64,000 nt of DNA from Pseudooceanicola sp. GTDB taxonomy: Bacteria; Pseudomonadota; Alphaproteobacteria; Rhodobacterales; Rhodobacteraceae. A model generated the notes under the pieces. It was not told the origin of the DNA. It worked only from the letters and a program-made list of their open reading frames with translations, and ran no database searches. The translations under genes were made by a program, and so were the position numbers. The stretch is taken from positions 50,265 through 114,264 of the forward strand of contig NZ_JARGNH010000012.1 in NCBI RefSeq assembly GCF_029213205.1. The letters are read 5' to 3'. This document shows positions 10,825-44,462 of the stretch, piece after piece; positions within the stretch are counted from its first letter, which is position 1, and every line of letters begins with the position of its first letter.

Positions 10825-10845
10825 GCGCCATTTGCGCGCCCGTGT

Positions 10846-10873
10846 CGCCGCCCCGGAACAATCCGGGGCGGCG
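10846..10873. terminator. Bidirectional hairpin between convergent genes
   Basis: An 11-bp perfect stem (CGCCGCCCCGG at 10846-10856 with its complement at 10863-10873) and a six-base loop lie between the synthetase and tctC stops. Confidence 0.75.
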
Positions 10874-10881
10874 GACATTGC

Positions 10882-11832: not shown

Positions 11833-11855
11833 TTTTCTTCCTCCTTTGGTGAAAA

Positions 11856-13822: not shown

Positions 13823-14107
13823 TTGGACCTCCGTTGCCTGAGCGGACCGGGCAGATCCACTCTCAGCCCTCCGCAGAAAGGCTTGCTTACCCCGGAAACC
13901 GGAACGCTGCCAAAGCTCTGCCAAAGTTCCCACATTCTTGATGCTATACAAGCTTCGGTTGTCGATCTGGGCGGCGTGCGGGTCTGGCCGCTGGACACCC
14001 GCAGATCGCCCGCGCAAACTTGGCGTTCTCGGCAAGGGCCGCAGCCAGAGGTGTTGCCCGAATCCGTCTTTGCCGCCAAGCCAAAGCCCTGATCGAGAGG
14101 AAACAGC
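13823..14107. other. Divergent promoter region between tctBAC and the amidohydrolase gene
   Basis: No gene is visible in these 285 bases. A small symmetric element, CTTG-N8-CAAG at 13937-13952, could be a GntR-type half-site pair, but the arms are only four bases. No regulator gene is adjacent. Confidence 0.35.
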
Positions 14108-14971
14108 ATGTCTGAGACCAGCCCAGCCATTCGCCTGCCGGAGGGCAGCACCGATTGTCATTTTCACATCTATGGCCCGGCTGACCGATTTCCCTATGTT
14201 ACCGGCGAGCGCTATTCGCCCCGGGGCGATGCCACGCTGGCAGATGCCTTTGCGCTGTGGGAGCGGATGGGTGTCAGCCGGGGCGTCATTGTCCATGCTT
14301 CCACGGCGGGCGAGGATAATGCCGTCACATTCGAGGCGCTGAAACGCTATCCCGACCGCCTGCGCGCCGTTGCCGTGCTTGACCCCGGGGTCAGCGACCG
14401 GCGCCTTGACGAGTTAACCGATGCCGGGTTCCGGGGGGTGCGGATCAACCTGATCCGCCAGGACGGACAGGTTATGTCGAACCGGGGCACCAGCCTCGAT
14501 GATCTGCGCAAGCTGGCGCCACGGATCGCCGAACGCGGCTGGCATGCGCAGCTCTGGGTCGAATGTTCGGACCTGGCCGAGGCCGCGCCGGAGCTGGATC
14601 GCCTGCCGCTGACCTATGTGGTCGATCACATGTGCCGCACCATGGCCGACAAGGGCGCCGATCATCCCGATTACCTGGCGTTTCTCGACCGGCTGCGCAG
14701 CGGCCGCTACTGGACCAAGATTTCCGGCGCCGACCGCAACACCCGGATCGGGCGGCCCTATGCCGACACCCGCAGCTTCATGCAGGCAATCGTCGCCGCC
14801 GCGCCGAAGCAGGTGGTCTGGGGCAGCGACTGGCCGCATGTCGGCCATACGCCAGAGACGGTCCCAGAGATGACGGACCTGCTGGCGATCCTGATGGAAT
14901 GCGTGCCGGACGACTCCACCCGTCGGCAGATTCTGATCGACAATCCGAAGCGGCTCTACGGTTTTGACTGA
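14108..14971 (+). CDS. Amidohydrolase family protein (2-pyrone-4,6-dicarboxylate hydrolase-like)
   Basis: A 287-residue TIM-barrel hydrolase of the amidohydrolase-2 group. The first metal/active-site motif is DCHFHIYGP, a later histidine follows in VVDHMCR, and the end of the barrel has VWGSDWPHVGHTP with the catalytic Asp. These match the LigI-like lactonase/hydrolase clade that acts on pyrone or muconolactone-type acids. It is divergent from tctBAC, so the transporter may import its substrate or a relative. The substrate is inferred. Confidence 0.8.
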   Translation: MSETSPAIRLPEGSTDCHFHIYGPADRFPYVTGERYSPRGDATLADAFALWERMGVSRGVIVHASTAGEDNAVTFEALKRYPDRLRAVAVLDPGVSDRRLDELTDAGFRGVRINLIRQDGQVMSNRGTSLDDLRKLAPRIAERGWHAQLWVECSDLAEAAPELDRLPLTYVVDHMCRTMADKGADHPDYLAFLDRLRSGRYWTKISGADRNTRIGRPYADTRSFMQAIVAAAPKQVVWGSDWPHVGHTPETVPEMTDLLAILMECVPDDSTRRQILIDNPKRLYGFD

Positions 14972-14972
14972 T

Positions 14973-14996
14973 CCGGCGCCTGGCGGGTGGCGCCGG
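14973..14996. terminator. Hairpin after the amidohydrolase gene
   Basis: An 8-bp perfect stem (CCGGCGCC at 14973-14980 and GGCGCCGG at 14989-14996) begins one base after the stop codon. It sits between convergent reading frames and has no U-tract. Confidence 0.6.
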
Positions 14997-14998
14997 GG

Positions 14999-15245
14999 TC
15001 AGCCGACCTCGGCGTCGTGAAAGGTCAGGATGAAGGCGCAGGAGCAATAGAACCCCATCAGGCCGGACAAGTCGCAGACCGCCTCGATTCCCAGCGCTGC
15101 GATGGCCTGGTCATAGACCGCCTTTGGCGCCGGTCGCGCGGTCAGCATCGCCGCCGTCGCCGCATGCACCGCCCTTTCGCGCTCGGTGTCCAGATCGGGG
15201 GTGCGGCCCGCGCGGATCGCCGCCATCGTCGCCTCGCTCAACCCG
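14999..15245 (-). pseudogene. Truncated carboxymuconolactone decarboxylase family gene (3' part)
   Basis: Read on the minus strand, the frame encodes GLSEATMAAIRAGRTPDL and then VYDQAIAALGIEAVCDLSGL, the C-terminal half of a CMD/AhpD-like protein. About 80 codons remain of a protein normally near 180 residues. The 5' part, including any CxxC or catalytic region, is missing because the sequence switches near 15245-15256 to a different gene on the other strand. It is probably nonfunctional. Confidence 0.7.
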
Positions 15246-15255
15246 ACGCGGGCGG

Positions 15256-15530
15256 TCTGCGTGTTTCCCGGCGGCTTTGGCGCCATGGACGAGACTTTCG
15301 AGGCGCTGACCCTGATCCAGACCGGACGGATGGAGCGGGTGCCGTTCCTGCTGTTTGGCCGGAAATTCTGGGAAAAGATCATCAACTGGGAGGCGCTGGC
15401 CGAGGCCGGGACGATTTCGGCGGAGGATCTGGAGCTGTTCCGCTTCGTCGAGACGGTGGAAGAGGCGATGGAAGCCATCGAGACCTGGCCGGGCGCAGGT
15501 GAGAAGCGGGGGGAGATCCCGGGGCGGTGA
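15256..15530 (+). pseudogene. Truncated LOG-family protein gene (3' part)
   Basis: The frame encodes VFPGGFGAMDETFEALTLIQ and then a C-terminal LFGRKFWEKIINWEALAEAG, the second half of a LOG/TIGR00730-type nucleotide-binding protein (the PGGxGTxxE motif is the active site). The N-terminal Rossmann half is absent; the similarity begins where the minus-strand decarboxylase fragment ends. With only about 90 codons and no plausible start, this is a decayed gene. Confidence 0.7.
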
Positions 15531-15819
15531 TGGGGGGGAGGCAGTGAGCGGATGTTTGTGTCGGGGCGGGCGGCAGGGAACGGGCGTTCGTTGTGATTTG
15601 TCCTAAGGGCGGTAAGCGGACTTTCGCGGGGCCGAGCACGAAGGTCAGGAAAGCGCAGGGAGCGGGCTTTGAAAAGTTATCTCAAATTGCAGAAAGCAGA
15701 CCCTCGTGCCATTTGTTGCAAGCGTGAGTTTGGAACCCCTGCTGTGGAATGCTGCAGCTATCGAGAGAAGGTAAAGGGCGGCTCGCGATACCCGATGGTA
15801 GGTCCGAAGGGGATGGAGA
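15531..15819. other. Gap without recognised features
   Basis: I see no gene, hairpin with a U-tract or repeat here. Composition drops in GC toward the next gene, which suggests the edge of a transferred segment. Confidence 0.4.
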
Positions 15820-16632
15820 ATGGCGAACGAGTATAATTTGGATTTCGATGGCATCCTAGAGATTGCACTCAAAGGTGTGCGGAGATCATCAGTCTTCATG
15901 GGGCTCGGTGTGAACGCAGCATTGGATCCGAGCAACAGCAACTACCAACTCTCTCACATTACTCGGATCCAAGTCATCCCCGACGATGCCCCCCAAGAGG
16001 CTCTCGAGCACTTCAAGGAAGAGTTCAAAATATGGATCGAGGCCTGCGCCTTGCGCGAAGCAACTGAGTCATTCGCGTTATTCCTTGACGAGTTGCATCG
16101 TGCCTGCAGTGTCATTCACGCCGTCAAAGGCAATGGCTCTATGGAAGAAGTTTCTGAAAAGCAAAGCAAGTTCGCGAAAGAAGGTTTGCCCAACAAGCTC
16201 AACATTCTTGAACAGCGCTTTGGGGTCACGTCGGCGCATAGCGGCAACCTTTCTCTCATCAATAGAGCGCGAAACTGTCTAACGCATCGAAAAGGACTGG
16301 TTGGGCTGGAGGATATCAGGGATCAACCAAAATTCACCGTAGCATGGCGCGGTTTGGACCTGTTTGTCGAGGAGCCGGATGGCACTAAGTCCGACTTGGG
16401 CGAAATTCCAGAGGGCGGTTTGCTGTTGGAGAATGGAGGCTTCGTAGGAGTCGAGTTTGTCGAGCGCAGTCGAACTTTCGACCTCGGTACCATGCTCTCT
16501 CTTTCGCCACGCGACCTAGCCGAGATCTGCTGGTTTCTTGCAAAAGAGGCGAAAACGATCACGAATTCGGCGATTTCGTATGCTCAAGCGAATGGTGTCG
16601 TCATGAACCAGGTTACCCAAAACAAAGGATAG
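15820..16632 (+). CDS. Hypothetical protein with an HEPN-like R-N-x3-H motif
   Basis: I do not recognise this 270-residue protein as a named family. Around residues 148-160 it reads INRARNCLTHRKG, with Arg151, Asn152 and His156 fitting the R-(N/D/H)-x3-H motif of HEPN nucleases. Predicted helices flank it, from residue 60 to 145, also as in HEPN domains. The C-terminal 100 residues look like a separate beta-rich part followed by a helix. AAGGGG lies upstream of the ATG. Codon use is less GC-biased than in its neighbours, and it sits beside broken genes, so it is probably an accessory import. A role in RNA cleavage or defence is inference only. Confidence 0.6.
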   Translation: MANEYNLDFDGILEIALKGVRRSSVFMGLGVNAALDPSNSNYQLSHITRIQVIPDDAPQEALEHFKEEFKIWIEACALREATESFALFLDELHRACSVIHAVKGNGSMEEVSEKQSKFAKEGLPNKLNILEQRFGVTSAHSGNLSLINRARNCLTHRKGLVGLEDIRDQPKFTVAWRGLDLFVEEPDGTKSDLGEIPEGGLLLENGGFVGVEFVERSRTFDLGTMLSLSPRDLAEICWFLAKEAKTITNSAISYAQANGVVMNQVTQNKG

Positions 16633-16707
16633 GCTTTGAAGTCGTCCGCTACAGGCTGAGAACGGTCACTAGACGTGTTTCGCGCAAACGCCAGCCATAG
16701 ACCAACC

Positions 16708-19700
16708 TCACCTCTCCCCCCAACCGCCCCCACCCGGCGTCAGCATCTCGAAGGCATCCCCGGCGCTCAGGCTGGATTCGGAATTCCCCGGCACCACCTC
16801 GCGGCGTCCATCTCCGCGCAGCACCGCGTTCTCGCCCACCGCTCCCGGCGCGCCGCCGTCGCCGCCCGGCGGTGGCACCAGGCGGTGTGACGACAGCGTG
16901 GTGACCGTCACATCGTCGAGGAACCGCACCACCCGGTGGATGCCATTGCCGCCCTGCCAGCGCCCGGCGCCGCCCGATCCCTGGCGCAGCGCCATCGTCT
17001 CCACCCGCACCGGGAACCTTGTTTCCAGCACTTCCGGGTCGGTCATCAGGGTGTTGGTCATATGCGAATGCACGCCCGAGGCGCCGTCGAACCCCGGCCC
17101 GGCGCCGCTGCCCCCGGCGATGGTCTCGTAATTCTGAAAGCGGTCATTGCCCCAGACGAAATTGTTCATCGTGCCCTGCGATCCGGCGATCACCCCGAGC
17201 GCGCCGAACAGGCAATCGGCAATCGCCTGGCTGACCTCGGTATTGCCGGCGATCACCGCCGCCGGGTGCACCGGGTTGATCATCGACCCGTCCGGCAGGA
17301 TCAGCTGCAGCGGTTTCAGGCAGCCCTCGTTCATCGGGATGTCACGGCCAACCAGGGTGCGGAACACATAGAGCGTCACCGCCATGGTGATCGATTTCGG
17401 CGCGTTGTAATTGGTGCCGTGCTGGGGTGAGGTGCCGGTGAAATCCAGCACCGCCTCGCCCGCCTGGCGATCGACGGTGATCCTGACCTTGATCTGCGAT
17501 CCGTCATCCAGCGGATAGGTGCAGGCGCCATCCTTCAACGATCCGATCACCTGCCGGACCGAGGCTTCGGCATTGGCCTGCACATGGCCCATGTAGGCGA
17601 GCACGGTGGCATGGCCGAAATTGTCGATCATCCGGGTGACCTCGGCGATGCCGGTGGCATTGGCGGCGACCTGCGCCTCAAGATCGGCGAGGTTGTCATC
17701 GGGGTTGCGGCAGGGATAGCGGCCAGAGGCGAGCAGGGCGCGAGTCTCGGCCTCGCGCAGTTTGCCGTCGCGAACCAGCAGGAAATTGTCGATCACCACC
17801 CCTTCTTCCTCGATATGGGTGCTGTCGGGGGGCGCCGATCCCGGGGTCCGGCCGCCGATATCGGCATGGTGGCCGCGCGAGCCGACCCAGAACAGGATCT
17901 CGGCCCCGGCCTGGTCAAATACCGGTGTGATCACGGTGACATCCGGCAGATGGGTGCCGCCATTGAACGGCGCGTTCAGCATATAGGCATCGCCGGGCTG
18001 GATCCGCCCGGCGTTGAGCCGCGCCACGGTGCGCACCGAATCCGACATTGAGCCGAGGTGGACCGGCACATGCGGCGCATTGGCGACCAGATTGCCATCG
18101 CTGTCGAACAACGCGCAGGAGAAATCCAGCCGTTCCTTGATATTCACCGAATAGGCGGTGTTTTTCAGCGTCGCGCCCATCTGTTCGGCAATCGACATGA
18201 ACAGGTTGTTGAACACTTCCAGCAGGATCGGGTCGGCCTCGGTGCCCAGGGCGTGCTGGGAGTGCCGCGCCTCGGTCCGGGTCAGGATCAGGTTGCCGAC
18301 GGTGTCAATCCGCGCCGACCAGCCCGGTTCGATGGCGTTGGTGCCGGTCGCCTCGGTGATGATCGCCGGGCCGGTGATCTCGGCCCCCGCCGCCAGGCTC
18401 TCGCGCTCATAGAGCGGCACCTGGTGCGCGGTGCCGTCCATGACCACCGGGATCCGGCCGCTGTCCATCGGGTCGTCGCTGCCGGTTGGCACCGGTGCGA
18501 TGGCGTCGTCGGTGGCGCCAATCGCCTCGACCGCCAGCATTTCGATCAGCAAGGGCCGGTCCGGCGCGGCAAAGCCAAAGCGTGCCTGATGCTGCGCGTG
18601 GAACGCGGCCTGCATCGCAGGGGCCTCGGCGAAGGGCACCTCCAGCGTCTGGTGAGAGCCTTCATAACGCAGGTGCGCGCGGGCCTCGGTGCGGATATCG
18701 GCGGCGGCGATGCCCTGGGCGGCGACCTCATCGCGGGTGGTCGCTTCCATATCCGCGACCTGCGATTCCAGCGCCGCGAGTGCCGTCATCGGCTTGTCGA
18801 CCTGCATCTCGCGGCTGGCGCGGATATCGGCCAGACCCATGCCGAAAGCCGACAAAACGCCAGCGTAGGGATGGACGAAGATCGAGGTCATCCCCAAGGC
18901 ATCGGCGACCAGGCAGGCGTGTTGCCCGCCGGCGCCGCCAAAGCAGTTGAGGGTGTAGCGGGTCACGTCATAGCCGCGCTCGACGCTGATCTTCTTGATC
19001 GCCTGTGCCATGTTCTGCACCGCAATTTTCAGAAACCCCTCGGCGGTTGCCTCGGGCGAGAGCGGCGGCTGGCCGGTGGCGGCGGCGATATCATCGGCCA
19101 ATATCACGAATTTCTGCCGCACCACATCGGCATCCAGCGGTTGATCGCCCTTGGGGCCGAACACCGCAGGGAAATGCGCTGGCGACAGCTTGCCCAGCAT
19201 CACGTTGCAATCGGTGACGGTCAGCGGCCCGCCGCGCCGATAGCAGGCCGGGCCGGGATCGGCGCCGGCACTTTCCGGGCCAACCTGATAGCGCCCCTCG
19301 CGGAACGCCAGCAGCGAGCCGCCACCCGCCGCAACCGTATGGATATGCATCATCGGCGCGCGCATCCTGGTGCCCGCCACTTCGGTTTCAAAGCTGCGTT
19401 CATAACTGCCCGCGTAATGGCAGACGTCGGTCGAGGTGCCGCCCATGTCAAAGCCGATCAGCCGGGTGAACCCCGCCGCCTCGGCGGTGCGGACCATACC
19501 GACGACGCCGCCCGCGGGCCCGGACAGGATCGCGTCCTTGCCCTGGAACATCCGCGCATCGGTCAGCCCGCCAGAGGATTGCATGAAAAACAGCCGTTCG
19601 CAGGCGCCGGCCGGGCCGAGGTCCAGCGCATCGGCCACTTGCTCGACATAGCGCCGCAGCACCGGCGACAGATAGGCGTCAACCACGGCGGTGTCGCCGC

Positions 19701-29370: not shown

Positions 29371-31845
29371 ATGAAATGGCTTGTTCTCATATGGCTGGTG
29401 CTGGCCCCGGCTGCCGGGCTTGCCGATGGGCGTCTGGCGCTGGTGTTCGGCAACGACCGCTATGACCACCTGCGGCCGCTGGCCAATGCCGGGGCGGATG
29501 CCGATGCGGTCGCCGACACGCTGGAAGCCCTGGGGTTCGAGGTGCTGCGCGAGCGCGACCGCGATCTGCGCCGGATGCGGCGGGCGCTGGAGGATCTGGA
29601 ATATGATGGCCAGGACGCCGAGGTGGTGCTGGTCTATTTCGCCGGGCACGGGTTTGAAGTGGCGGGCGACAACCGGCTGCTGCCGGTGGACGCGGTGACC
29701 GGCAGCATCGAGACGCTGATCGAGGGCAGCCTGTCGCTGAACGATATCCGCACGCTGGTCGCCCGGATCGCCAAGGTCGGGATCGTGCTGGTCGATGCCT
29801 GTCGCGAGGATCCCTTTGTCGCCAGCGGTGCCGGGCGCAGTGGCGTCGCGCTGAACGGGGCGCAGACGCGTCCCGGCTTTGCGGCGGTCGACAAGGCCGA
29901 AGGCACCCTGGTCGGCTTTGCCACCGCGCCGGGGGATACCGCCTTGGACGGGGTGGATGGCCATTCGCCCTTTGCCAGCGCGCTGATCCGGCATCTGGCG
30001 ACCCCGGGGCTTGAGGTGCGTTCGGTCCTGACGCTGGTGCAGCAAGAGGTCTATGACCGCACCCGTGGCGATCAGCTGCCCTATGTCGAAAGCGCCCTGC
30101 CGAGGCTGTTCTTTGCGGCGCAGGCGCAGGATCAGCTGCCCGAGCGTGAGCGGCTGCTGCTGGCGATGGCCGGGCTGAACCCGGACCTGCGGGCTGAGGT
30201 CGAAAAGGCGGCCGCGGCGGCGAACATGCCGCTGGCGCCGCTCTATGGCGCGCTGATTGGCGCCGGGTTGGCAAGGGAATCCGCCGACGACCGGGCCAGG
30301 ATGCTGATTGATGCCGCCCGCGCCTATACCGAGACCCGCGAGCGGCTGAGCAACCTGGCGGCGCAGGATGCCGAGGTGTCGCGGCTGCGCGATACGGCGG
30401 CCGAGCGGCTGGACCTCGGTGATTTCAGCGGTGCGATGGCGGCGCTGGATCTGGCGGCGGCGCGGGACCGGGACTCAGGCACGCAGCTTGAGGCGAATCT
30501 GGTGGCGCGCCGATTGTCCGAGGCCGAGAGCCTGACGCTGAAGGCCGGTGTCGCCAAGACGGCGCTGGATTATCCGGTGGCGGTGGCGGCGCTGACCCAG
30601 GCGGCGGCGCTGCATGCCGGGATCGCCGGGTTGGATGTGGCGGATGCGGACCGCAGAAAGCGGACCTGGCTGCTGGCCGATCTGGGGGAAATTCACCGCC
30701 GCCTCGGGGCGACAGACGCGGCAATGCAAAGCTATTCCGAGATGCAGGCGGCCGCCCTGGCCCGGCTTGCGGCAGCGCCCGACACCCACGAGGCCGAATA
30801 TGACCTCGCCGCGACCTATGACCGGATTGGCGAGGTCGAAGTGCTGCAAGGCGATCTGCCCGCCGCGCAATCGTGGTATGCAAAGGCCTACGAAATCACC
30901 GCGCGGTTGGTGGCGCTGGAACCCGACAATCAGAAATGGCAGCGCGGTCTTGGCGTGTCGTTCTTCCGGGCCGGTGAGGTCCGCTTCTGGCAGGGCGATC
31001 TGCAAGGCGCCTTGACCGCTTATTCGCAAGGCTTGGAGCACAGCCAGAGGCGCGCGGCGTTGGCGCCCGAGGACGCCGCGCTTCAGCGGGACATTGCGGC
31101 AAACCATACCCGGATCGGCGATGTGAATATTGCCCTGGGTGAAGGGATCGCGGCGCTGGGCGCATTTCGCGCGGCTCTGGAAATCTCTGAGGCCTTGGCC
31201 GCACTCGATCCGGCGGATGCCGCGCGCCAGCGGGATGTGTCCGTGAACCATGGTCGAGTGGGCGTGGCCTACCAGGCTCTGGGTGACCTTCCGGCGGCAT
31301 TGGGGGCCTATCAGGATTCCTTCGACATCATCGAACAACTTCTGACGAAGGACCCCAGCAACACCGGGTTGCAGAGCGAAAGCGCAGTCGGACAAGGCCT
31401 GATCGGGCAGGTGCTTGAGGCGCAGAGCGATCTGCCGGGTGCTCTGAGAGCCTATCAGGCGAGCAAGGCAATCCAGGAACGCCTTGTCGCGCAAGACCCC
31501 AGTAATGGGGTATGGGGGCGCGACCTGTCGGTGACCTATAACAAGATCGGCGGGATCAAACGGAAACAGGGCGACGCGACGGCGGCCTATGCCGCCTTTC
31601 AGGCCTCACTGGCGACCGTCCAGAGATTTGCCGATCGCGACCCGAGCCAAGCGACCTGGCAGCGCGATCTGGTGGTGTCCCATTACAACCTGGCGCTGGT
31701 TGGCCCGACGCCGCGCGCGCATTATTCCCGGGCCCTGGAGGTCGTGGAAAGCATGATCGAGAAAGGCATTCTCGCACCGCCGGATGCGTTCCTGCCCGGC
31801 CTGCTGCGCAAGAAACTCGACGCGCTGCCGCCGGGTTCCCCCTGA
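29371..31845 (+). CDS. Exported caspase-like (peptidase C14) protein with TPR repeats
   Basis: A predicted secreted 824-residue protein. A short signal peptide (MKWLVLIWLVLAPAAGLA) is followed by a caspase p20-type domain, residues 19-255. It starts RLALVFGNDRYDHLRPLANA and carries the catalytic dyad His93 in YFAGHGFE and Cys144 in LVDACRED. From about residue 270 the chain is helical, with multiple TPR-like units each containing GDLPAAL- or ALxAYxxS-type pairs. Metacaspase-like TPR proteins are common in alphaproteobacteria, but targets are unknown. It separates recF (with the VOC gene) from gyrB. Confidence 0.88.
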   Translation: MKWLVLIWLVLAPAAGLADGRLALVFGNDRYDHLRPLANAGADADAVADTLEALGFEVLRERDRDLRRMRRALEDLEYDGQDAEVVLVYFAGHGFEVAGDNRLLPVDAVTGSIETLIEGSLSLNDIRTLVARIAKVGIVLVDACREDPFVASGAGRSGVALNGAQTRPGFAAVDKAEGTLVGFATAPGDTALDGVDGHSPFASALIRHLATPGLEVRSVLTLVQQEVYDRTRGDQLPYVESALPRLFFAAQAQDQLPERERLLLAMAGLNPDLRAEVEKAAAAANMPLAPLYGALIGAGLARESADDRARMLIDAARAYTETRERLSNLAAQDAEVSRLRDTAAERLDLGDFSGAMAALDLAAARDRDSGTQLEANLVARRLSEAESLTLKAGVAKTALDYPVAVAALTQAAALHAGIAGLDVADADRRKRTWLLADLGEIHRRLGATDAAMQSYSEMQAAALARLAAAPDTHEAEYDLAATYDRIGEVEVLQGDLPAAQSWYAKAYEITARLVALEPDNQKWQRGLGVSFFRAGEVRFWQGDLQGALTAYSQGLEHSQRRAALAPEDAALQRDIAANHTRIGDVNIALGEGIAALGAFRAALEISEALAALDPADAARQRDVSVNHGRVGVAYQALGDLPAALGAYQDSFDIIEQLLTKDPSNTGLQSESAVGQGLIGQVLEAQSDLPGALRAYQASKAIQERLVAQDPSNGVWGRDLSVTYNKIGGIKRKQGDATAAYAAFQASLATVQRFADRDPSQATWQRDLVVSHYNLALVGPTPRAHYSRALEVVESMIEKGILAPPDAFLPGLLRKKLDALPPGSP

Positions 31846-34869: not shown

Positions 34870-35262
34870 CTACCCAAGCTCGAGAAACGCGCGAAGCAGG
34901 TTCTCGCGTGTGAGAACCCCGACAAGCGCGGTGCCTTCTGTCACCGGGTAGGCGCGATACGGCTTTTCCTGAAAGACCTCTGCCGCGGCAATGATGTCGA
35001 TATCGGCCTGAAGCGTCACGACACTGCGCGACATGTGATTCCCGACCGTATCTGACCATTGCTGGTAATAGCTGGCATTGAGGGCCGACCGGAAGCAATC
35101 CTTGGGGGTCAGGACGCCCAGGAGCTCGCCCGCCTCGCCGCAGATGCAGGCGAGGGGCTGCGCGGCGGCGAGCAGTCGGGCAATGGCGTCGCGCATGGGG
35201 CAGCCTTCATCGAGCAGAAGAAATTCGCGCGACATGATGGTGGTGACTTCTCGTTCAGCCAT
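34870..35262 (-). CDS. CBS-domain pair protein
   Basis: A 130-residue protein made of two CBS domains, the first with DEGCPMRDAIARLLAAAQPL and GVLTPKDCFR, the second with ADIDIIAAAEVFQEKPYRAY, PVTEG and GVLTRENLLR. CBS pairs sense adenine nucleotides. The ATG at 35262 has GGGAGG upstream and overlaps the nqrM stop by eight bases, so it is translated from the nqr operon. It may regulate the complex according to cell energy state, which is inference. Confidence 0.85.
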   Translation of the reverse strand: MAEREVTTIMSREFLLLDEGCPMRDAIARLLAAAQPLACICGEAGELLGVLTPKDCFRSALNASYYQQWSDTVGNHMSRSVVTLQADIDIIAAAEVFQEKPYRAYPVTEGTALVGVLTRENLLRAFLELG

Positions 35263-35419
35263 GTCTCTGGGCCTCCCTGCGGCGCGGACAGATGTCGCAA
35301 TGCCCCGCACAGGCGGCAGCTCCGCAGCTGTCGCTTGGCGGTCGTCCGGTCAGCATCAACCCGAGGCCGAGCCCCCCGGCGGTGATCAGAATGATGCCAA
35401 AGACCAGGATGAATTCCAT
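35255..35419 (-). CDS. nqrM: NqrM, (Na+)-NQR maturation factor
   Basis: A 54-codon gene. One N-terminal helix (EFILVFGIILITAGGLGLGL) is followed by a cysteine-rich tail SCGAAACAGHCDICPRR. That cysteine arrangement is the NqrM (DUF539) hallmark; the protein helps deliver iron to the NqrD/NqrE site. It starts three bases after the apbE stop and its end overlaps the CBS gene, so it belongs to the nqr operon. Confidence 0.9.
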   Translation of the reverse strand: MEFILVFGIILITAGGLGLGLMLTGRPPSDSCGAAACAGHCDICPRRREAQRHG

Positions 35420-35422
35420 GGA

Positions 35423-36430
35423 TCAGATCCTTTCCAGACCGTCCGACAGGGTGCCGGTCGTGACAAGGTCCGGCGCGCTGTTCGCCCGGTTCAGGACAAA
35501 GAGGGCGCTCAGGTCATTCCGCTTTGCGAGCTGCTGGCCCAGTTCCGGCCCTGCCGCCATCAATGCCGTTGCCCAGCCATCCGCCACAATCGCCGTTTCG
35601 GCCAGAACCGTGACCGAGAGAAGCGATGACCGCCGGGGGCCTTGCCGGTCCGGCGCGATGATATGGCCATAGCTCTGTCCGGCGAAGTCATAGCCGTTCA
35701 CCTTGTTGCCAGAGGTCGCGAGCGCGGCGTCGCCAAGCGCGAGAGTCGCGACGAGGCCCGTTTGGCCGACCCGCGGATCTTCGACACCAGCCCGCCAGGC
35801 GCGCCCGTCCGGATGTGCGCCCCAGGCGATGATTTCTCCGCCGAACTCGATAAAGCCGGCCTCGGCCCCCACCCCGCGCGCCAGCGCCGCCAGCCGGTCG
35901 AGCGCATGGCCCTTGGCGATGCCGCAGGGATCAAAAGTGGTGCCATCGGTGGTCTTGACGATGCGGCTGCCCGCGACCTCGATCTGCCGCCAGTCCGGCC
36001 TGTCCGAGCCGTCGCTGATCGGGCCGAAGCCGAAGCGTGCGACCAGCGGGCCAACGGTCGGGTCAAACTGCCCCCCGCTGGCGCCTGCAATGGCAAGCGA
36101 CTGCCTGGCCACCAGTAGCAGATCATCCCCCCGGGCGGTCGCGCCGGCCTGTGCCCTGTTGAATGCGGTCACGACACTGTCTCTGCGCCACGGTGACAGC
36201 GCCGCATCGAGCGCGGACAGGCGTGTTTCGGCCCGGTTTGCGAATTCGGCGAGCGGCAGGCTGTCGGGCAGGAGGGCGTGCCAGCTTGTGCCGAAAGCGG
36301 CGCCCGAGACCGCGCGCAGCGGCGGCGTGCGCCCGATCACTGGAACGGCCGCAAGGCCGGAGGCCAGGGCGGCCAGCCCGCCGCCGATGGCCAGGACACC
36401 GCGCCTGTGCAGTCTGCCGCATTGATGCAT
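35423..36430 (-). CDS. apbE: FAD:protein FMN transferase (ApbE)
   Basis: Flavin transferase of 335 residues that covalently attaches FMN to Thr/Ser in NqrC (and NqrB) on the periplasmic side. The N-terminus MHQCGRLHRRGVLAIGGGLA looks like a Tat or Sec signal. The ApbE core shows FGTSWHALLP, LSPWRRDSVVTAFN, GQFDPTVGPLV and DPCGIAKGHALDR with the Mg/FAD-binding residues. A GGAGG upstream selects the ATG at 36430, four bases after the nqrF stop. Confidence 0.94.
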   Translation of the reverse strand: MHQCGRLHRRGVLAIGGGLAALASGLAAVPVIGRTPPLRAVSGAAFGTSWHALLPDSLPLAEFANRAETRLSALDAALSPWRRDSVVTAFNRAQAGATARGDDLLLVARQSLAIAGASGGQFDPTVGPLVARFGFGPISDGSDRPDWRQIEVAGSRIVKTTDGTTFDPCGIAKGHALDRLAALARGVGAEAGFIEFGGEIIAWGAHPDGRAWRAGVEDPRVGQTGLVATLALGDAALATSGNKVNGYDFAGQSYGHIIAPDRQGPRRSSLLSVTVLAETAIVADGWATALMAAGPELGQQLAKRNDLSALFVLNRANSAPDLVTTGTLSDGLERI

Positions 36431-36434
36431 CGCT

Positions 36435-37655
36435 CTATCCTCCGAAATCGTCATTGAAGATCATATGCCGTTCGACGCCGAGCTTGCGCAGGGTCGCGAG
36501 CACTGCGGAAATCATCAGCGGCGGACCGCAGAGGTAATATTCGCAGCTTTCCGGCGCCGGGTGCCGGGCCATGTGACGTTCCAGGATCGTGTGAATGAAC
36601 CCGGTCGGCCCCTGCCAGCGGTCGCCGGGTCCGGGATCGGACAGGGCGGCAATCCATTCGAAGCTCTTGTGCGCCGCGTGGATGGCCTCGAACTCCTCGA
36701 CATAGAAAAGGTCGGCCTTGGTCCGGGCGCCATAGAAATAGGTGATGCGGCGATCCGTGCCGCGCGCGACCTGTTCGTGCACCATGGACCTGAGCGGTGC
36801 CATGCCCACGCCGCCGCCGACCAGAACGATGTCGTTGGCCGTGTCCTGCACATGGAACTCTCCGAAGGGGCCGGAGACTTCGACCGGGTCGCCGCGCCGA
36901 CGCGAAAACAGCCAGGAGGAGACGACGCCGGGCGGTATCTCCGCCTCTTTCCCGGCGGGCGGCGCGGCCAGACGGATGTTGAAGACCAGCGTTCCGGCGT
37001 CTTCCGGTCGGTTTGCCACCGAATAGGCACGGGTCACGGGCGCGTCAGACCGGCTTGTGAGGCGGGCCCAGCCGGCATGGTCCCAGGCCAGCGCATGGGC
37101 CGGCTCGATGGCGACATCCGAGAAGTCGAGCGTATAGGCTGGGGCAGTCAGCTGCATGAAGCCGCCCGCGCGGAAGGGAATGTCGCGTGGCACCTTCGGA
37201 CGCAGAACCAGTTCGCGGATGAGCGGGGCCATCATCCGGTTCGAAACCACTTCGCAAGTGAAGGTTTCGGCGGCGAGAATGTCGCCGGGCACGGTGACCG
37301 CGACATCGCCACCCAGGACAAGCTGGCAGGCGAGCCGGGTATTCGCCCGCCGTTCCGCCGCGGACAGCAGGCTGATTTCGGTCGGACGCAGCGGCGCGCA
37401 GCCCGGCCCGGTGGCCTGGACCCGGCACAGGCCGCAGGTGCCGCTGCCCCCGCAGCCCGCCGGAATCGGAACTCCCGCGCCATGCAGCGTGGACAGTAGC
37501 GTCTCGCCCTGTTTGGCGATGATCGGCGGGCCGTCGTTGACTGTCACCTGGCTTTCTCCGCGCGGTAGCCACAATGAGCGGGCAGCCAGCAGACCCAGGC
37601 TGAGAACCAGGACCAGCGTGATCATGATGCCGGAGCCGACAAGAATCTCGGTCAT
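36435..37655 (-). CDS. nqrF: Na+-translocating NADH:quinone reductase subunit F
   Basis: NADH-oxidising subunit of 406 residues: one N-terminal helix, then a [2Fe-2S] ferredoxin domain with Cys68, Cys74, Cys77 and Cys110 (GCGGSGTCGLC), an FAD domain with TRAYSVANRPED, and an NAD domain with LVGGGVGMAPLRSMV and CEYYLCGPPLM. The end FNDDFGG matches NqrF. The ATG overlaps the nqrE stop. It accepts hydride from NADH and passes electrons to the NqrD/E iron centre. Confidence 0.95.
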   Translation of the reverse strand: MTEILVGSGIMITLVLVLSLGLLAARSLWLPRGESQVTVNDGPPIIAKQGETLLSTLHGAGVPIPAGCGGSGTCGLCRVQATGPGCAPLRPTEISLLSAAERRANTRLACQLVLGGDVAVTVPGDILAAETFTCEVVSNRMMAPLIRELVLRPKVPRDIPFRAGGFMQLTAPAYTLDFSDVAIEPAHALAWDHAGWARLTSRSDAPVTRAYSVANRPEDAGTLVFNIRLAAPPAGKEAEIPPGVVSSWLFSRRRGDPVEVSGPFGEFHVQDTANDIVLVGGGVGMAPLRSMVHEQVARGTDRRITYFYGARTKADLFYVEEFEAIHAAHKSFEWIAALSDPGPGDRWQGPTGFIHTILERHMARHPAPESCEYYLCGPPLMISAVLATLRKLGVERHMIFNDDFGG

Positions 37656-38263
37656 GAGGTCACCATCTGGGCGAAGGCCGAGAACCCGAGCGAGAGCATC
37701 CCGGTCAGCAGAAACGCCACGCCAAGGCCGCGCAGGCCCGCCGGAAGGTCGGCATAGGCCAGCCGCTTGCGGATCGCGGCCAGCATGATGACCGCCAGCG
37801 CGAACCCGGCGCCGGAGCCAAATCCGAAGACCGCGCTTTCGGCGAGGTCGTAGCGCCGTTCGACCATGAACAGGCTGCCGGCAAGGATGGCGCATTGCAC
37901 CGTCAGCAGCGGCAGGAACGACCCGAAGGCGGCATGGATCGCCGGCACAAACCTTTGCAGCAGAATTTCGAGAAGCTGGACCGTGGCGGCGATTACTCCG
38001 ATGAAGGCCAGCAGCGCCAGATAGCTGAGGTCGATCTCGGGATGGCCAGCCCAGCCCCAGGCCCCGGGCGCGAGAAACAGATCGTAAACCAGCCGGTTGA
38101 GTGGGACCGTCAGGCCGAGGACGAACATCATCGTGACACCCAGCCCGAGAGCAGCTTCGACCCGGCGCGACAGGGCCAGAAAGGTGCAGAGGCCCAGGAA
38201 GAAGGTCAGCGGCATGTTCTCGACGAACATGGCCCTGAGAAAGAGGCTGCCCAGCTCGGTCAT
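37652..38263 (-). CDS. nqrE: Na+-NQR subunit E
   Basis: A 203-residue membrane subunit with six helices. Cys26 (FLGLCTFLAL) and Cys124 (LLTVQCAILAG) correspond to the two cysteines that bind the intramembrane iron centre together with NqrD. It overlaps nqrD and nqrF by four bases each. Confidence 0.95.
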   Translation of the reverse strand: MTELGSLFLRAMFVENMPLTFFLGLCTFLALSRRVEAALGLGVTMMFVLGLTVPLNRLVYDLFLAPGAWGWAGHPEIDLSYLALLAFIGVIAATVQLLEILLQRFVPAIHAAFGSFLPLLTVQCAILAGSLFMVERRYDLAESAVFGFGSGAGFALAVIMLAAIRKRLAYADLPAGLRGLGVAFLLTGMLSLGFSAFAQMVTS

Positions 38264-38922
38264 TCCCCGGCCTCCCGCCGCCGCGGCGGCGTATGGGCCG
38301 GCGGCTCGACCTGCTCCGGCAGGGCAGAGCGGATCGCCCAGACCAGGAGTCCCAGCAGGAAGAAGGCGCTCGGAGCCAGCAGCATCAGGTTCAGCGGAAC
38401 GAACCAGCCGCCATCCTCGACACTCCGCAGAACCGGTTGGCCCATAAGAGTGCCCTTGCCCAGGACTTCGCGGATTGTACCGATCACGATCAGGATCAGC
38501 GAATAGCCCAGCCCGTTGCCCGCAGCGTCGACCACCGAGGGGATCACCGGATTGCTGCGGGCAAAGGACTCGGTCCGCCCCAGAACAAGGCAATTGGTGG
38601 TGATCAGGCTGACAAAGACCGACAGCCTCTGGCTGATGCCAAAGAAATAGGCCTGAAGCACCTGGTCGATGACGATGACCAACGAGGCAACAATGAGGAT
38701 CTGGAGGATCAGGCGGATGCTGACCGGGATATGTCGCCGGATCATGCTGATGATCGCTGCCGACAGCACCAGCACCACGGTCAGGGAAACCGACATCGTC
38801 AGCGCGGTGTCGAGCGATGTGGTCACCGCCAGCGCCGAACAGATGCCGAGGATCTGGAGCGTGATCGGATTTTCCCGGATCAACGGCGACAGGAACGTCT
38901 GGCGGAGTGCGGGCCGGGCCAT
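38260..38922 (-). CDS. nqrD: Na+-NQR subunit D
   Basis: A 220-residue membrane subunit homologous to NqrE in inverted topology. Cys28 (LGICSALAV) and Cys111 (TTNCLVLGRTE) supply the other two iron ligands. Length and motifs are canonical apart from a Pro/Arg-rich tail. The nqrC stop lies two bases upstream. Confidence 0.95.
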   Translation of the reverse strand: MARPALRQTFLSPLIRENPITLQILGICSALAVTTSLDTALTMSVSLTVVLVLSAAIISMIRRHIPVSIRLILQILIVASLVIVIDQVLQAYFFGISQRLSVFVSLITTNCLVLGRTESFARSNPVIPSVVDAAGNGLGYSLILIVIGTIREVLGKGTLMGQPVLRSVEDGGWFVPLNLMLLAPSAFFLLGLLVWAIRSALPEQVEPPAHTPPRRREAGE

Positions 38923-38923
38923 C

Positions 38924-39724
38924 TCAGAACTCCTGCCGCCGGATAGCCTCGATCACCGGGCCATAACCGTCCGGGCCGAGCCAGAACCGCACCATCTGCG
39001 TGACCCCGCGCCCGGTGCGGCTGGCACCGGTGATGCCATCGACCTCGTAGGAGGACACCGCCGGGCCGCGGGCAACGGCGAATTTCATCGCGCCGGACGG
39101 GTCGCGAATCACGGTGCCCTGAAATCCCGCCTGCCAGGTCGGTTCCTCGATCCGCGCGCCCAGACCGGGGGTTTCGGATTGCTGCGTGACCGCCAGGCCC
39201 GCGATCGTGTTCATGTCGCCGGTCAGGGCGATCATCGCCTCAATCGGGCCATTATAGCCCGACCCGATCACCGGAAAGATCGCGGTCTGCACCTGGTCGT
39301 CGCGGCGCAGGATATAGATCTGCACATAGCGCGGGCGCGTCCCGATCCCGGCGATGTCGGCGGCGGCGTCCAGCGGCCTGTAATTGTCGGCTTCCTGAAG
39401 CGCGGCGTCGAGCGTTGCCGGCGTCACCTCACGCGCCGCCATCCCGGTGTCGAGGTCGACAACGACGGTCGAGAGCTTGGCGCTGGCATCCGCGGCCAGC
39501 AGCTCCTGCATGCCCGGGATCGCGCTGATCAGCGCCTCCAGCCGAAGCTGGGTTTCGGCGGCGCGGTTGGCGGCCTGGATCGGACGCAGCAAGACCGTGG
39601 CCCCGGTCACGAAGGCAGAGCAGGTCGCGGCGACCAGAACCGCGACGAAGATGGTCTTGCCGCGGTTGTCGTTCGGTTGGGCGAGGAAGCGTTTCCACAG
39701 CGCGAGCGGGGACCAGTCAGCCAT
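38924..39724 (-). CDS. nqrC: Na+-NQR subunit C, flavinylated
   Basis: Covalent-FMN subunit of 266 residues: one N-terminal helix and a periplasmic FMN-binding domain. The ApbE acceptor motif is DGITGASRTG, so the acceptor is Ser235 rather than the Thr found in well-studied NqrC proteins (SGAT). ApbE accepts either residue by its D-x-x-(S/T)-G-A-(S/T) rule. The ATG at 39724 overlaps the nqrB stop. Confidence 0.92.
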   Translation of the reverse strand: MADWSPLALWKRFLAQPNDNRGKTIFVAVLVAATCSAFVTGATVLLRPIQAANRAAETQLRLEALISAIPGMQELLAADASAKLSTVVVDLDTGMAAREVTPATLDAALQEADNYRPLDAAADIAGIGTRPRYVQIYILRRDDQVQTAIFPVIGSGYNGPIEAMIALTGDMNTIAGLAVTQQSETPGLGARIEEPTWQAGFQGTVIRDPSGAMKFAVARGPAVSSYEVDGITGASRTGRGVTQMVRFWLGPDGYGPVIEAIRRQEF

Positions 39725-40499
39725 GGCGGTTTCTCCGTGTTGCCTGCCAAAGAAGCAGCGCGATTTCGTCCAGAAGCGGGGCGGCGAGATTCGCCAGCAG
39801 CGCCGCACTGAGGGCGAGCTGCGTGGTCGCGGCCCCGTCCCAGACCGCCAGAAAGAGGGCGATGAGGGCACCGTAGAACAGCCCCTGCATCCAGCGGCCG
39901 GTCTGCGTATTGGCCGACGTCACCGGATCGCAGACCAGCAGCGCGAAGCTGGCGAGTATGGCCGGGGCAGTGAACGGGTCGGTGACCGGCAGCCCCACCA
40001 GCGCGGCCAGCGAAAGCGCGATGGCCGTCCCGGCGACCAGGCGGATGGCGTAGAGGCCGAACGCCACGGCCAGAGCCAGCGTGCCGCATGCGCCCCAGGT
40101 TATCAGGATCGACAGCTCAGGCCATGGCGCGGCCGGATAGCCGAACCCCAGAAAGGCAATGGCGACCGTGGCCGGATGCAGGATGTTGCGGCCCCACCCG
40201 CCAAACGCCAGCTCGCCAATGACCACGCCAAAGCTGACGCCCAGCACGAAGGCGAAAGCGCCGAGGCCGGTCGGGGCCAGAACCGCGATCGCGAATGCGG
40301 TCACCACACCGGCGAGCGATGGCGGCTGTGCGCGCAGCAGCAGGAAGGCCAACTGCCAGCCGTAGGTAATGGCAAGCGCGGCAAGCAGGCGGATAGCGCC
40401 GTCCCAGCCTGCGCCCGTCAGCCAGACCACTGCCAGCGGCAGCATCGCGATGACCAGAAAAAGCGCCACTGTTTCCCGCGACCACATGCCCCTTGTCAT
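39717..40499 (-). CDS. nqrB: Short Na+-NQR subunit B (NqrB/RnfD family)
   Basis: A 260-residue membrane protein, against about 410 in Vibrio. The conserved GELAFGGWGRNILHPATVAI and the late LVCDPVTSANTQTGRWMQG are clear, so family membership is safe. Missing are the N-terminal extension of about 55 residues and, after FGYPA, the segment with DGYSGAT whose threonine carries the covalent FMN in canonical NqrB. No other D-x-x-(S/T)-G-A-(S/T) motif is present. It overlaps nqrA and nqrC. Whether riboflavin and quinone sites persist cannot be told. Confidence 0.88.
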   Translation of the reverse strand: MTRGMWSRETVALFLVIAMLPLAVVWLTGAGWDGAIRLLAALAITYGWQLAFLLLRAQPPSLAGVVTAFAIAVLAPTGLGAFAFVLGVSFGVVIGELAFGGWGRNILHPATVAIAFLGFGYPAAPWPELSILITWGACGTLALAVAFGLYAIRLVAGTAIALSLAALVGLPVTDPFTAPAILASFALLVCDPVTSANTQTGRWMQGLFYGALIALFLAVWDGAATTQLALSAALLANLAAPLLDEIALLLWQATRRNRHG

Positions 40500-41785
40500 A
40501 TCCCCCCCTCTTCCGCGACCTGATCGATCAGCAGGCGCAATTGCGCTGCGATCGGCGGATCGGCTTGGGTGATGTAATCGACCAGCGCGAGGTCTTCCTC
40601 AACCAGAGACAGCGCCCCGAGCGCGATCGCGCTCTCCGTATCGCCCGAAGAGATCGCGCGGATGAGCGGCATGACGGGAACTGTCCCGCCAAGCGCCTGA
40701 TCCAGCCCGGCGGTCGGAATGACAGGCAGCGGGCGCGACGAACGGCCAAGCGCCGCGCGAAGCCAGTGACGCCGTCCGGCGGGCTCGGGCTCGGTGAGCA
40801 CGGTGATCTGACGACTGCCCCAACTCAGCCAGCGCGCAGGCGTGCCGTCGATCGGGGATCCCGACAGGACCAGATGTTTCCCGGGCACAACTTTGCCAAG
40901 GAGAAGCTCACGAATATCCGCACCGGGCTGCACCTTGAGCAGAAGCGGATTGCGCATCCCCGGTCCGCTCAGGGCGACATGCCTGGTCTCGGGGATGTGG
41001 CCGGTGCGCATGAGCGCGCCGATATCCGCGAGCGCCTCAATGTGGATATCCCAGACCGGATGGGTGAAACTTGCGGGCGCGTGGCGCAGTATATGAATAC
41101 CAGCCAGCCCCCAGGGATGGGTTGCGGGAGCCTCGATGGTTCTCACCCGGCCGCCGGCGCTGCGCATGTCGATCTCGGCGCCGCGCGGTTTGACCAGAAA
41201 TATCGGCCCCTGTGTCAGAGTGGATAGCGCCGCCAGCCCGGCCTTGATCTCGGCGCCTCTCTCCTGCACCCAGTCCAGCGGGCACCCAGCACCGGGGCGG
41301 GTGTCATGGGCCATCACCACAATCGCCGACGGGCGCACCTCGCCGAAAGCGGGGGCGAAACCGGGGCGTTGCCGAAAGGCGCGCCATAACCCGGTGTTGG
41401 CCAGCAGCGTCCATATCTCGGCGCCGCTCGGGCTGTCCGGCACCTCGAAGGCATGCCGCCCTGCATCGGGTTCGTAATAAAACAGGATCGAATTCAAACG
41501 GTGGCCTCGGTCCATGTCGACCGAGGCCACACGGGCCGACATCGGGGCGGTCATGGTGAAGGCATGCGCTTTGGTCGCTCGCAGCACCGGCTGACCCTGC
41601 GCGACCAGATCGCCGGGCTTGACCAGAAGCTCGACCCGAAAGTCGCCACGGAACGGCGAACGGATCAGCGCTTCGTTGGTGATCCGTGTTTCGGTCATGG
41701 CGTTTGCGCCAGCGTCCGACGGACGGAGGCCTCTTGAACGGTCGCTCGTGGGCACCGTCAGACCGATGGCATGTCGCGACACCAC
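40496..41785 (-). CDS. nqrA: Na+-NQR subunit A
   Basis: Peripheral quinone-associated subunit of 429 residues. Recognisable parts are ALIRSPFRGDFRVELLVKPG, DLVAQGQPVL, the biotinyl-lipoyl-like fold at the N-terminus, and ALVDYITQADPPIAAQLRLL at the end. It starts with GTG at 41785 with AAGGAA six bases before. First gene of the operon nqrABCDEF-apbE-nqrM-CBS, divergent from a pentaheme cytochrome gene. Confidence 0.88.
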   Translation of the reverse strand: MVSRHAIGLTVPTSDRSRGLRPSDAGANAMTETRITNEALIRSPFRGDFRVELLVKPGDLVAQGQPVLRATKAHAFTMTAPMSARVASVDMDRGHRLNSILFYYEPDAGRHAFEVPDSPSGAEIWTLLANTGLWRAFRQRPGFAPAFGEVRPSAIVVMAHDTRPGAGCPLDWVQERGAEIKAGLAALSTLTQGPIFLVKPRGAEIDMRSAGGRVRTIEAPATHPWGLAGIHILRHAPASFTHPVWDIHIEALADIGALMRTGHIPETRHVALSGPGMRNPLLLKVQPGADIRELLLGKVVPGKHLVLSGSPIDGTPARWLSWGSRQITVLTEPEPAGRRHWLRAALGRSSRPLPVIPTAGLDQALGGTVPVMPLIRAISSGDTESAIALGALSLVEEDLALVDYITQADPPIAAQLRLLIDQVAEEGGI

Positions 41786-41899
41786 TTCGAGTTCCTTTTC
41801 ATCGACCGTCGTAACGTGATGCTATCCAAGATTTGTGGCGAATCCAAATTTCCTGTAGGGTTTTGGAAGCGTAAGCTTTTAATTTGACGGGAAAAATTC
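41786..41899. promoter_or_regulatory. Divergent promoter region for nqr and the pentaheme cytochrome gene
   Basis: A 114-base gap, AT-richer than its surroundings, between opposite start codons. It must hold both promoters, so the nqr operon and the cytochrome gene are likely co-regulated. No palindrome or FNR box was seen. Confidence 0.5.
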
Positions 41900-43090
41900 A
41901 TGAATCTGCCGCACATGAATACTTTGAGGGCAATTTACTTGATGGCGGGCTTCGCCGGTATCGTGATCGCCACGACCGGGCCGGTCCTTGCTCAGAGCGA
42001 TAAACCCTCTGAGATCGAAGAGATTGCCCGGGAATTGTCGACCTACGTCTTCCCGAAAACTGGCCCCTACACGCCGGAAGCAATCGTGATCGGGAATGCG
42101 CGCCAAATCGAAAGCTGGGCGCGATCGGCCCATGCCAACTCTGCCGCCGAAGCCTTTGCCCATTGGAATGCCGATGGCGAGATTCCCGGCGCCTGTGCCG
42201 TTTGCCATTCCGGCCAGGGGTTCCGCGCCTTCCACGGCCTGGACGGGAGCGCGCCCGGGCCCCTGCAATCCCCGATTCCGACCGGCGGCGTCGTGGATTG
42301 CGAAACCTGCCACAAGCCGGGACTTGCCGAGATCGACAGCGTTACCTTGCCCTCCGGTGTTGTCCACCCGACGGAGACTGCCCTGGTGCCCTGCCTGACC
42401 TGCCACACCGGTCGGTCCTCGGGCGCGAACGTGGCAAAGGTGACCGCCAACATGGCCGAGGATACGGTGAACCCGGAATTGTCTTTCGTGAACCCGCATT
42501 ACAAGGTGGCCGGGGCCACATGGCTCGGCGGTTATGGCGGCATCGGATATCATTATCCCGGCAAGACCTATTCCGGCCGCTTCCTTCACGCCAAGCCGGT
42601 CGCAAGCTGCCTGTCCTGCCACGAGCCTCATGCGCTGACGGTGAACGAGGCGATCTGCCTGACATGTCACGAGACCGGTGCGGCGCAGGATATCCGAATC
42701 TCGCGCCAGAGCTATGATGGCAGTGGCGATACCGCACAGGGGATCGCGGTGGACATCCGCGCCAACAGTGACCTGCTTATGCGTGAAATGCTGGACTATG
42801 CGTCGCAGGTTGCCAAGACCGGGCTGATCTACGACAGCGGTCGATATCCCTATTTCTTTGCCGACGCGAACCGCGACGGCGTTGTCGACCAGACCGACGG
42901 GCGGCCTGTCACGTTCAAAGGCTGGACGCCGACGCTGCTGCGGGCGGCCTATAATTGGAAAGTGGTCACGAGCGATCCGGGCATCCATGTGCACAACCCG
43001 CATTACGCGCTTGAACTGATCCATGATTCGATCGAATCCCTTGCCAAGGCGCAGGGAAAGGACTTTGCCGCATTCGGACTGATGCGGTGA
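41900..43090 (+). CDS. Periplasmic pentaheme c-type cytochrome
   Basis: A 396-residue exported protein. An N-terminal signal/anchor region (TLRAIYLMAGFAGIVIA to LAQ near 31) precedes five CxxCH haem motifs: CAVCH (99), CETCH (134), CLTCH (165), CLSCH (237) and CLTCH (253). Extra histidines (for example His200, His218, His230) may be distal ligands. The C-terminal 130 residues lack haem motifs and may be a partner-binding part. It is divergent from nqrA by 114 bases. It resembles the polyheme membrane-associated cytochromes but I cannot assign a named family; an electron-exchange role with the NQR complex is inferred from position. Confidence 0.85.
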   Translation: MNLPHMNTLRAIYLMAGFAGIVIATTGPVLAQSDKPSEIEEIARELSTYVFPKTGPYTPEAIVIGNARQIESWARSAHANSAAEAFAHWNADGEIPGACAVCHSGQGFRAFHGLDGSAPGPLQSPIPTGGVVDCETCHKPGLAEIDSVTLPSGVVHPTETALVPCLTCHTGRSSGANVAKVTANMAEDTVNPELSFVNPHYKVAGATWLGGYGGIGYHYPGKTYSGRFLHAKPVASCLSCHEPHALTVNEAICLTCHETGAAQDIRISRQSYDGSGDTAQGIAVDIRANSDLLMREMLDYASQVAKTGLIYDSGRYPYFFADANRDGVVDQTDGRPVTFKGWTPTLLRAAYNWKVVTSDPGIHVHNPHYALELIHDSIESLAKAQGKDFAAFGLMR

Positions 43091-44150: not shown

Positions 44151-44462
44151 CTAGGCGGCGTCTTCATTTAAGCAAGCCAGGTCATTGCGCATGCGCGAGA
44201 CACAAAGGCTCGGAAGGATGAGACGTCTCAGGTGATCAGCGTGGTAAGCCGCGTCCGCCATCACATGCCCGACGCCTTCCAACCCTTCGATCAAGTCGGG
44301 GGCCTGCGGACAATCACCCCATTGACCGGGGGTGATGGTGAAGCGGATCGGCAGCCCGAGCGCATCGACGGCGGCATGGGCCTTGCAAATGCTTGCATCG
44401 ACGATGGGCGTATTCGAAGTCTGGGTCTTGGCGTATAGCGTTTCGACTTCAACTTGAAACAT
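44151..44462 (-). pseudogene. IS5-family transposase fragment
   Basis: The minus-strand frame contains KTQTSNTPIVDASICKAHAA, VDALGLPIRF and GLEGVGHVMADAAYHADHLR, typical of the DDE domain of IS5-type transposases. Both ends are missing: similarity starts inside the protein and is lost after LRRLI. About 90 codons remain. It abuts the broken 3' end of the enolase-superfamily gene. Confidence 0.8.

Follow-up and report, generated by a model that had tools for sequence, protein, structure and literature searches.

A cut-down Na+-pump-type NADH enzyme encoded beside a five-haem-motif protein in many alphaproteobacteria

Genes of the locus and their products

A neighbourhood of ten genes, common to many alphaproteobacteria, encodes a cut-down Na+-pump-type NADH enzyme together with a five-haem-motif protein (Table 1). 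The copy described here lies in a stretch of 64,000 nucleotides, which is called the window as a whole. The layout proposed in a sequence-only reading of this DNA, nqrABCDEF-apbE-nqrM-CBS divergent from a pentaheme CxxCH cytochrome gene across 114 bases, is confirmed by the coordinates.

Table 1. Positions of the genes and the shared intergenic region in the window
Feature	Position	Strand	Remarks
CBS-domain protein	34870..35262	-	130 aa, last in the unit; PF00571, two stretches
nqrM-like	35255..35419	-	54 aa, four Cys; Fe-S maturation factor as predicted from sequence
apbE, FAD:protein FMN transferase	35423..36454	-	PF02424 above cut-off; NF007774 matched, below cut-off
nqrF, NADH/FAD/[2Fe-2S] electron input subunit	36435..37658	-	TIGR01941, 396.9 bits, above cut-off
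nqrE	37652..38266	-	TIGR01940 above cut-off
nqrD	38260..38922	-	TIGR01939 and NF006777 above cut-off
nqrC, binds FMN; flavinylation motif DGITGAS	38924..39730	-	268 aa; PF04205
short nqrB, without FMN-attachment loop and N-terminal quinone-pocket stretch	39717..40499	-	260 aa; PF03116
nqrA, divergent in sequence	40496..41785	-	PF24836 and PF11973 above cut-off; PF05896 below; below NCBIfam cut-offs
shared divergent intergenic region	41786..41899	.	114 bases, between nqrA and the cytochrome gene
secreted cytochrome	41900..43090	+	396 aa, five CxxCH, predicted NrfA-like pentaheme fold

The genes nqrA to nqrF stand in the standard order of a Na+-NQR. NqrD, NqrE and NqrF score above their NCBIfam cut-offs, and NqrA, NqrB and NqrC are recognised below theirs, NqrB being furthest below (71.6 bits vs. 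a cut-off of 414). RnfC and RnfB gave no match at E 0.001 among the window's proteins; the input subunit is NqrF and the first subunit has matches to NqrA domains. Across the 3.69 Mb and 60 contigs of the window's genome, this pair was the only match to the NqrD/NqrE family, and neither ordinary NQR nor RNF was found there. Complex I is present in the same genome, as judged from the NuoH family.

The chief alteration lies in NqrB, 260 aa long in the window vs. 399–428 aa in 20 ordinary NqrB proteins from the same family. The motif for covalent FMN attachment is found at the NqrB site in none of 120 short NqrB sequences and in all of the 20 ordinary ones fetched. In the FMN-site segment, where two of three reported Na+ ligands lie, about 48 out of 60 residues are gone. 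The NqrB model aligns only from Vibrio cholerae residue 47 onward, and the N-terminal stretch is absent; two papers count this stretch as part of the quinone pocket (PMC12174285, PMC9325719). In alignment A1 (120 sequences out of 538 matches, with the window's own protein, P0123, excluded), N203 is kept in 103/120 and G141 in 98/120; the idea that the family as a whole lacks N203 and the quinone-site glycines, true of the window's protein, was therefore dropped. N200, a residue of the riboflavin site, is kept in 120/120. Because these positions are mostly kept, an electron path back to the cytoplasmic side may still exist in the variant. FMN may also sit in NqrB non-covalently.

The other subunits are better preserved. 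In 25/25 loci, cysteines 72, 78, 81 and 114 and R213, Y215 and S216 of NqrF, cysteines 28 and 111 of NqrD, and two cysteines of NqrE are invariant. NqrC is full-length and carries TGA[T/S] in 25/25 loci, the acceptor being T in 22 and S in three; NqrA is divergent. The earlier view that both NqrB and NqrC are altered thus holds mainly for NqrB, short and with its loop lost, NqrC being of undiminished length (268 aa) with DGITGAS kept. Cysteines 32, 37, 41 and 44 of the nqrM-like protein are invariant in the 14 copies recovered by BLAST. The CBS gene, present in 24/25 syntenic loci, is part of the unit as proposed, and no sign of the tie to energy status suggested for it was seen. A Usp gene, considered as a further component, was discarded after appearing in 4/28 loci in the first neighbour survey and 2/67 in the family survey.

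The cytochrome has an N-terminus judged signal-like by eye. In alignment A2 (119 of 769 matches; the window's own P0003 and P0116, of 672 aa, excluded), a CxxCK haem of the NrfA type occurs in 0/119 sequences, and its absence rules out identity with NrfA nitrite reductase. Six invariant histidines besides those of the CxxCH motifs are enough for the far side of every haem. The predicted fold is nearest to the pentaheme modules of NrfA and OcwA/OmhA, a weak resemblance with no Foldseek match at E 0.001, and the haem order is that of NrfA. By sequence, the protein gave one weak match to solved structures; its profile gave short or weak ones, the best being a Shewanella-type cytochrome c-552 (E 0.00043).

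Conservation of the unit and exchange of the partner

A scan of GTDB genomes yielded 27 cytochrome loci, 24 of them with the divergent nqr cassette. The three exceptions are a more distant cytochrome (L027), a contig ending inside the gene (L028), and a locus in which a cytochrome of the close class defined below is retained and only the first part of nqrA, with its start, is left (L029). By BLAST among the 24 cassette loci, apbE was not found in L005, L006, L007 and L009, nor CBS in L011. As a possible partner, a PpsA-type gene was matched in eight loci, in four of these as partial frames only. Carriers of the unit include Rhodobacterales and Hyphomicrobiales, Paracoccus solventivorans and Shinella granuli among them. 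The unit appears to move as a block, because four plasmids (of Shinella, Paracoccus, Nitratireductor and Pseudooceanicola) hold it amid different flanks. On a fifth matching plasmid, from Defluviimonas, some 2 kb separate the cytochrome from a cluster of PepSY, cytochrome b, DUF2271 and ApbE genes. A Mantel test also finds the genes travelling together, which is no more than synteny already shows, and a class-wide search met the cytochrome in 2/289 genomes, too sparse for co-occurrence.

A survey of 394 genomes of the window's family, Rhodobacteraceae, four of them shared with the first scan, found the cytochrome in 66 and an NqrB-like match in 107. The cytochromes split into two score classes, with no score falling from 447.6 to 556.1 bits. 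Every genome with a close-class cytochrome has a short NqrB (30/30), matched over most of its length in 29 and as a fragment on another contig in the remaining one (G446), which bears out the proposed tie of a variant NQR to periplasmic haems. In all of the 30 loci, two cut by contig ends (L132, L135), nqrA adjoins the cytochrome gene on the opposite strand. Standard NQR operons had been said to lack such a partner; indeed, among 20 ordinary nqr loci of the same family, chosen from the survey's NqrB match list, no such cytochrome was found within a 12 kb stretch (20/20).

The 38 second-class loci are more varied: 16 have variant nqr, another 16 a ferric-reductase-like protein, and six have neither adjoining. 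In the variant-nqr loci, the genes lie on opposite strands in 13 and on the same strand in three; one is decayed (L106) and two are cut by contig ends (L081, L104). One of the six loci with neither partner (L099) adjoins cytochrome b561 and a PF11783 multiheme cytochrome, and five have no redox partner next to them; one of the six is the locus of G631, whose variant nqr is described below. Second-group short nqrB genes occur in 21 genomes, 17 of which have the cytochrome: adjacent in 16, and on another contig in G631 (cytochrome at L084, variant nqr at L140). Short nqrB is thus accompanied by a cytochrome of the family in 47/51 genomes and lacks it in 4/51, all of the second group (4/21), so that the pairing, for which either gene occurring widely alone would have counted against it, stands with few exceptions on this side. 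Among these four genomes, G531 has its contig cut off within nqrB, and in G395 the position of the cytochrome is taken by a PF09459 haem protein. Of 56 genomes with ordinary-type NqrB only, two by hand count have a family cytochrome, with a ferric-reductase-like partner in G299 and a b561 one in G295.

On the cytochrome side the exceptions are more frequent, with 22/68 loci lacking an adjoining nqr, and for this wider family the proposal as first worded is not borne out. In 16 of these 22, an NAD(P)H-binding membrane protein is encoded divergently instead, which fits the idea of electron exchange. It is a ferric-reductase-like FAD/NAD(P)H protein (PF01794), unrelated to NQR and broken in L105. 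Proteins of this type push NAD(P)H electrons outward. Their replacement of nqr in the same position favours NADH oxidation, in a matter, NAD reduction or oxidation, that the sequence-only reading had left open.

Trees were built from chosen subsets of loci. For NqrD plus NqrF, 8/20 ordinary loci were dropped for gaps and 54/62 loci kept; variants and ordinary NQR are parted by a branch whose ultrafast bootstrap is 100; the close class is also a clade (100), unlike the second group of variant nqr. Among the cytochromes, all 16 sequences linked to a ferric-reductase-like protein group with the solitary L102 in a single clade (100), which lies among those linked to variant nqr. On present sampling, the exchange of partner probably happened once, because the ferric-reductase-linked cytochromes form a single clade.

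A PF00999 Na+/H+ exchanger is encoded near 18/46 nqr-linked survey loci (11/30 close-class, 7/16 second-class), in 13 of the 18 at 7–55 bases downstream of the cytochrome gene on the same strand. It was found in 0/16 ferric-reductase-linked loci, a contrast with p 0.003, weaker when pooled at 0.018, neither value accounting for shared descent, and in 0/20 ordinary nqr loci. In G631 the exchanger comes after the solitary cytochrome (L084), and in L139 it adjoins the nqr genes. Its occurrence in some lineages is taken to suggest movement of Na+. Against this, the first scan has it in only 1/24 cassette loci and in 0/4 plasmids, the 64,000-nt window has none, and one query of the window's genome gave no match either, a result that says little on its own.

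Proposed electron route and its alternatives

Taken together, the intact input half, the altered output half, the near-constant cytochrome and the swap for a ferric-reductase-like protein point to NADH electrons leaving via NqrC. Probably, this is a rewired NQR in which the electrons pass to the periplasmic pentaheme cytochrome and not to ubiquinone, possibly with Na+ moved outward. Electrons would flow outward from NADH through NqrF and NqrD/E to the NqrC flavin, and from there to the adjacently encoded cytochrome as the putative acceptor in place of ubiquinone. Beyond it, they may go to a reductase or other acceptor whose gene lies elsewhere, or the cytochrome itself may reduce a small molecule. 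If Na+ is pumped outward during this transfer, it would more likely pass through the NqrD/E dimer, since most residues are gone from the NqrB segment with two of the three reported ligands. NqrA is retained although the outward scheme leaves less work for it, which counts against this explanation, as do the kept riboflavin-site residues, the loci in which either partner is missing and the patchy distribution of the exchanger. The fuller proposal is tentative and, in its entirety, somewhat doubtful: a quinone-free Na+ pump that would couple NADH oxidation to electron export to the cytochrome, with Na+ passing via NqrD/E, and whose place beside this cytochrome family has in evolution also been taken by a ferric-reductase-like exporter, may be a previously undescribed respiratory coupling site. 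The scarcity of the exchanger in the first scan and on plasmids makes it somewhat less likely.

The pentaheme protein could instead be a terminal, NrfA-type reductase of nitrite, hydroxylamine or a similar small molecule, fed by the variant NQR. This is partly compatible with export through NqrC, and we give it a limited chance, since the CxxCK haem is missing in 119/119 sequences and the six extra histidines would occupy every haem's far side. It appears unlikely that the complex goes on reducing quinone by way of a non-covalent NqrB FMN, beside a cytochrome that is a separate enzyme merely sharing the promoter region. The kept riboflavin-site residues and NqrA agree with such an enzyme, and an NqrB-like subunit without the conserved Thr and with an apparently non-covalent flavin site has been proposed for two-gene NQR/RNF-like systems (PMC11334425); but the variant has lost some 48 FMN-loop residues and the quinone-pocket stretch, not a single residue, and shared regulation alone hardly explains a 30/30 pairing and a swap for an exporter-type protein.

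An inward run, in which the cytochrome receives electrons from a donor in the periplasm and the variant NQR, powered by Na+ influx, lifts them uphill to NAD+, is regarded as quite unlikely. RNF works in both directions (PMC12174285), and the Na+/H+ exchanger could also supply the Na+ gradient for it. Against it stand the 16/38 loci in which distant cytochromes are paired with proteins of the outward type, and the lack of any donor enzyme recurring beside the cassette, as far as the rough neighbour calling in GC-rich DNA tells.

Relation to known systems

Like the Na+-NQR of V. cholerae, the unit encodes all six subunits in unchanged order and includes apbE and an nqrM-like gene; the residues for NADH and FAD, the two Fe-S sites and the flavin site of NqrC are kept. 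Unlike it, the variant has a divergent periplasmic cytochrome and an NqrB from which the FMN loop and the quinone-pocket stretch at the N-terminus are missing; from ordinary NQR of the window's family it is set apart by a fully supported branch. Methanosarcina acetivorans reportedly combines RNF with a multiheme cytochrome, MmcA. That is an archaeal RNF, and here an NADH-fed NQR with a short NqrB and a five-CxxCH NrfA-like cytochrome is found. Ferric-reductase-like oxidoreductases (PF01794) take the same divergent position beside the distant cytochromes, but as a single unrelated protein, and we know of no ion pumping by them. NrfA and OcwA/OmhA come nearest, weakly, in predicted fold, and the haem order is that of NrfA; the cytochrome differs in lacking CxxCK and in its weak sequence similarity to solved structures. 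A two-gene NQR/RNF-like flavinylation system, proposed to work in NAD(P)H export in one direction (PMC8238504, PMC11334425), resembles the unit in an NqrB-like subunit without the conserved flavin Thr. One of its two subunits fuses the NqrB-like part to an NAD domain, whereas here there are six subunits and an NqrB of 260 aa with PF03116 only. Searches of openly licensed literature, a weak basis for a negative, brought up no account of an NQR whose NqrB is shortened or which has a pentaheme cytochrome encoded divergently.

The Na+ route in NQR and RNF is debated between NqrB/RnfD and the NqrD/E (RnfA/E) dimer (PMC12174285). If the variant complex pumps, the NqrD/E model gains, given that the NqrB segment with the FMN site and two of three Na+ ligands reported is mostly gone and the NqrD/E cysteines are kept. 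Alphaproteobacteria could then spend NADH on periplasmic reactions and conserve energy in doing so, in parallel to the simpler ferric-reductase-like route. In the public records examined, such genes are annotated as Nqr subunits, ‘RnfD’, ‘cytochrome C’ and ‘cytochrome c3 family protein’.

Partners of the cytochrome and of the variant nqr

The cytochrome b561/PF11783 pair at L099 is an additional type of partner for the second-class cytochromes, the more distant members of the family. Beside the variant nqr (that with the short nqrB) of L138, the place of the pentaheme cytochrome is occupied by the PF09459 haem protein. Decayed copies are found of both the nqr-linked unit (L106) and the ferric-reductase-linked unit (L105). 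A pyruvate phosphate dikinase-type gene is a repeated neighbour of second-class loci (L073, L076, L081, L084, and L088).

Features at other loci and in the window outside the unit
Location	Coordinates	Strand	Feature
L099	5863-9549		second-class cytochrome adjoining cytochrome b561 (PF01292) and PF11783 multiheme cytochrome
L032, Defluviimonas plasmid	8836-17934		same-family cytochrome ~2 kb from PepSY/cytochrome b/DUF2271/ApbE flavinylation cluster
L138	1367-2752		ethylbenzene-dehydrogenase-type haem protein (PF09459), divergent from variant nqr
window	44154-44462	-	DDE transposase fragment (PF01609), directly past Usp gene
window	29371-31845	+	caspase-domain (PF00656) and TPR protein, adjoining gyrB

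Surroundings of the unit in the window

The transposase fragment is a mobile-element scar adjoining the nqr-cytochrome unit. By eye, a palindrome-like AATTTG/CAAATT element is seen within the nqrA-cytochrome intergenic region (window 41786-41899), and inspection by eye finds a similar element at the loci L003 and L004.
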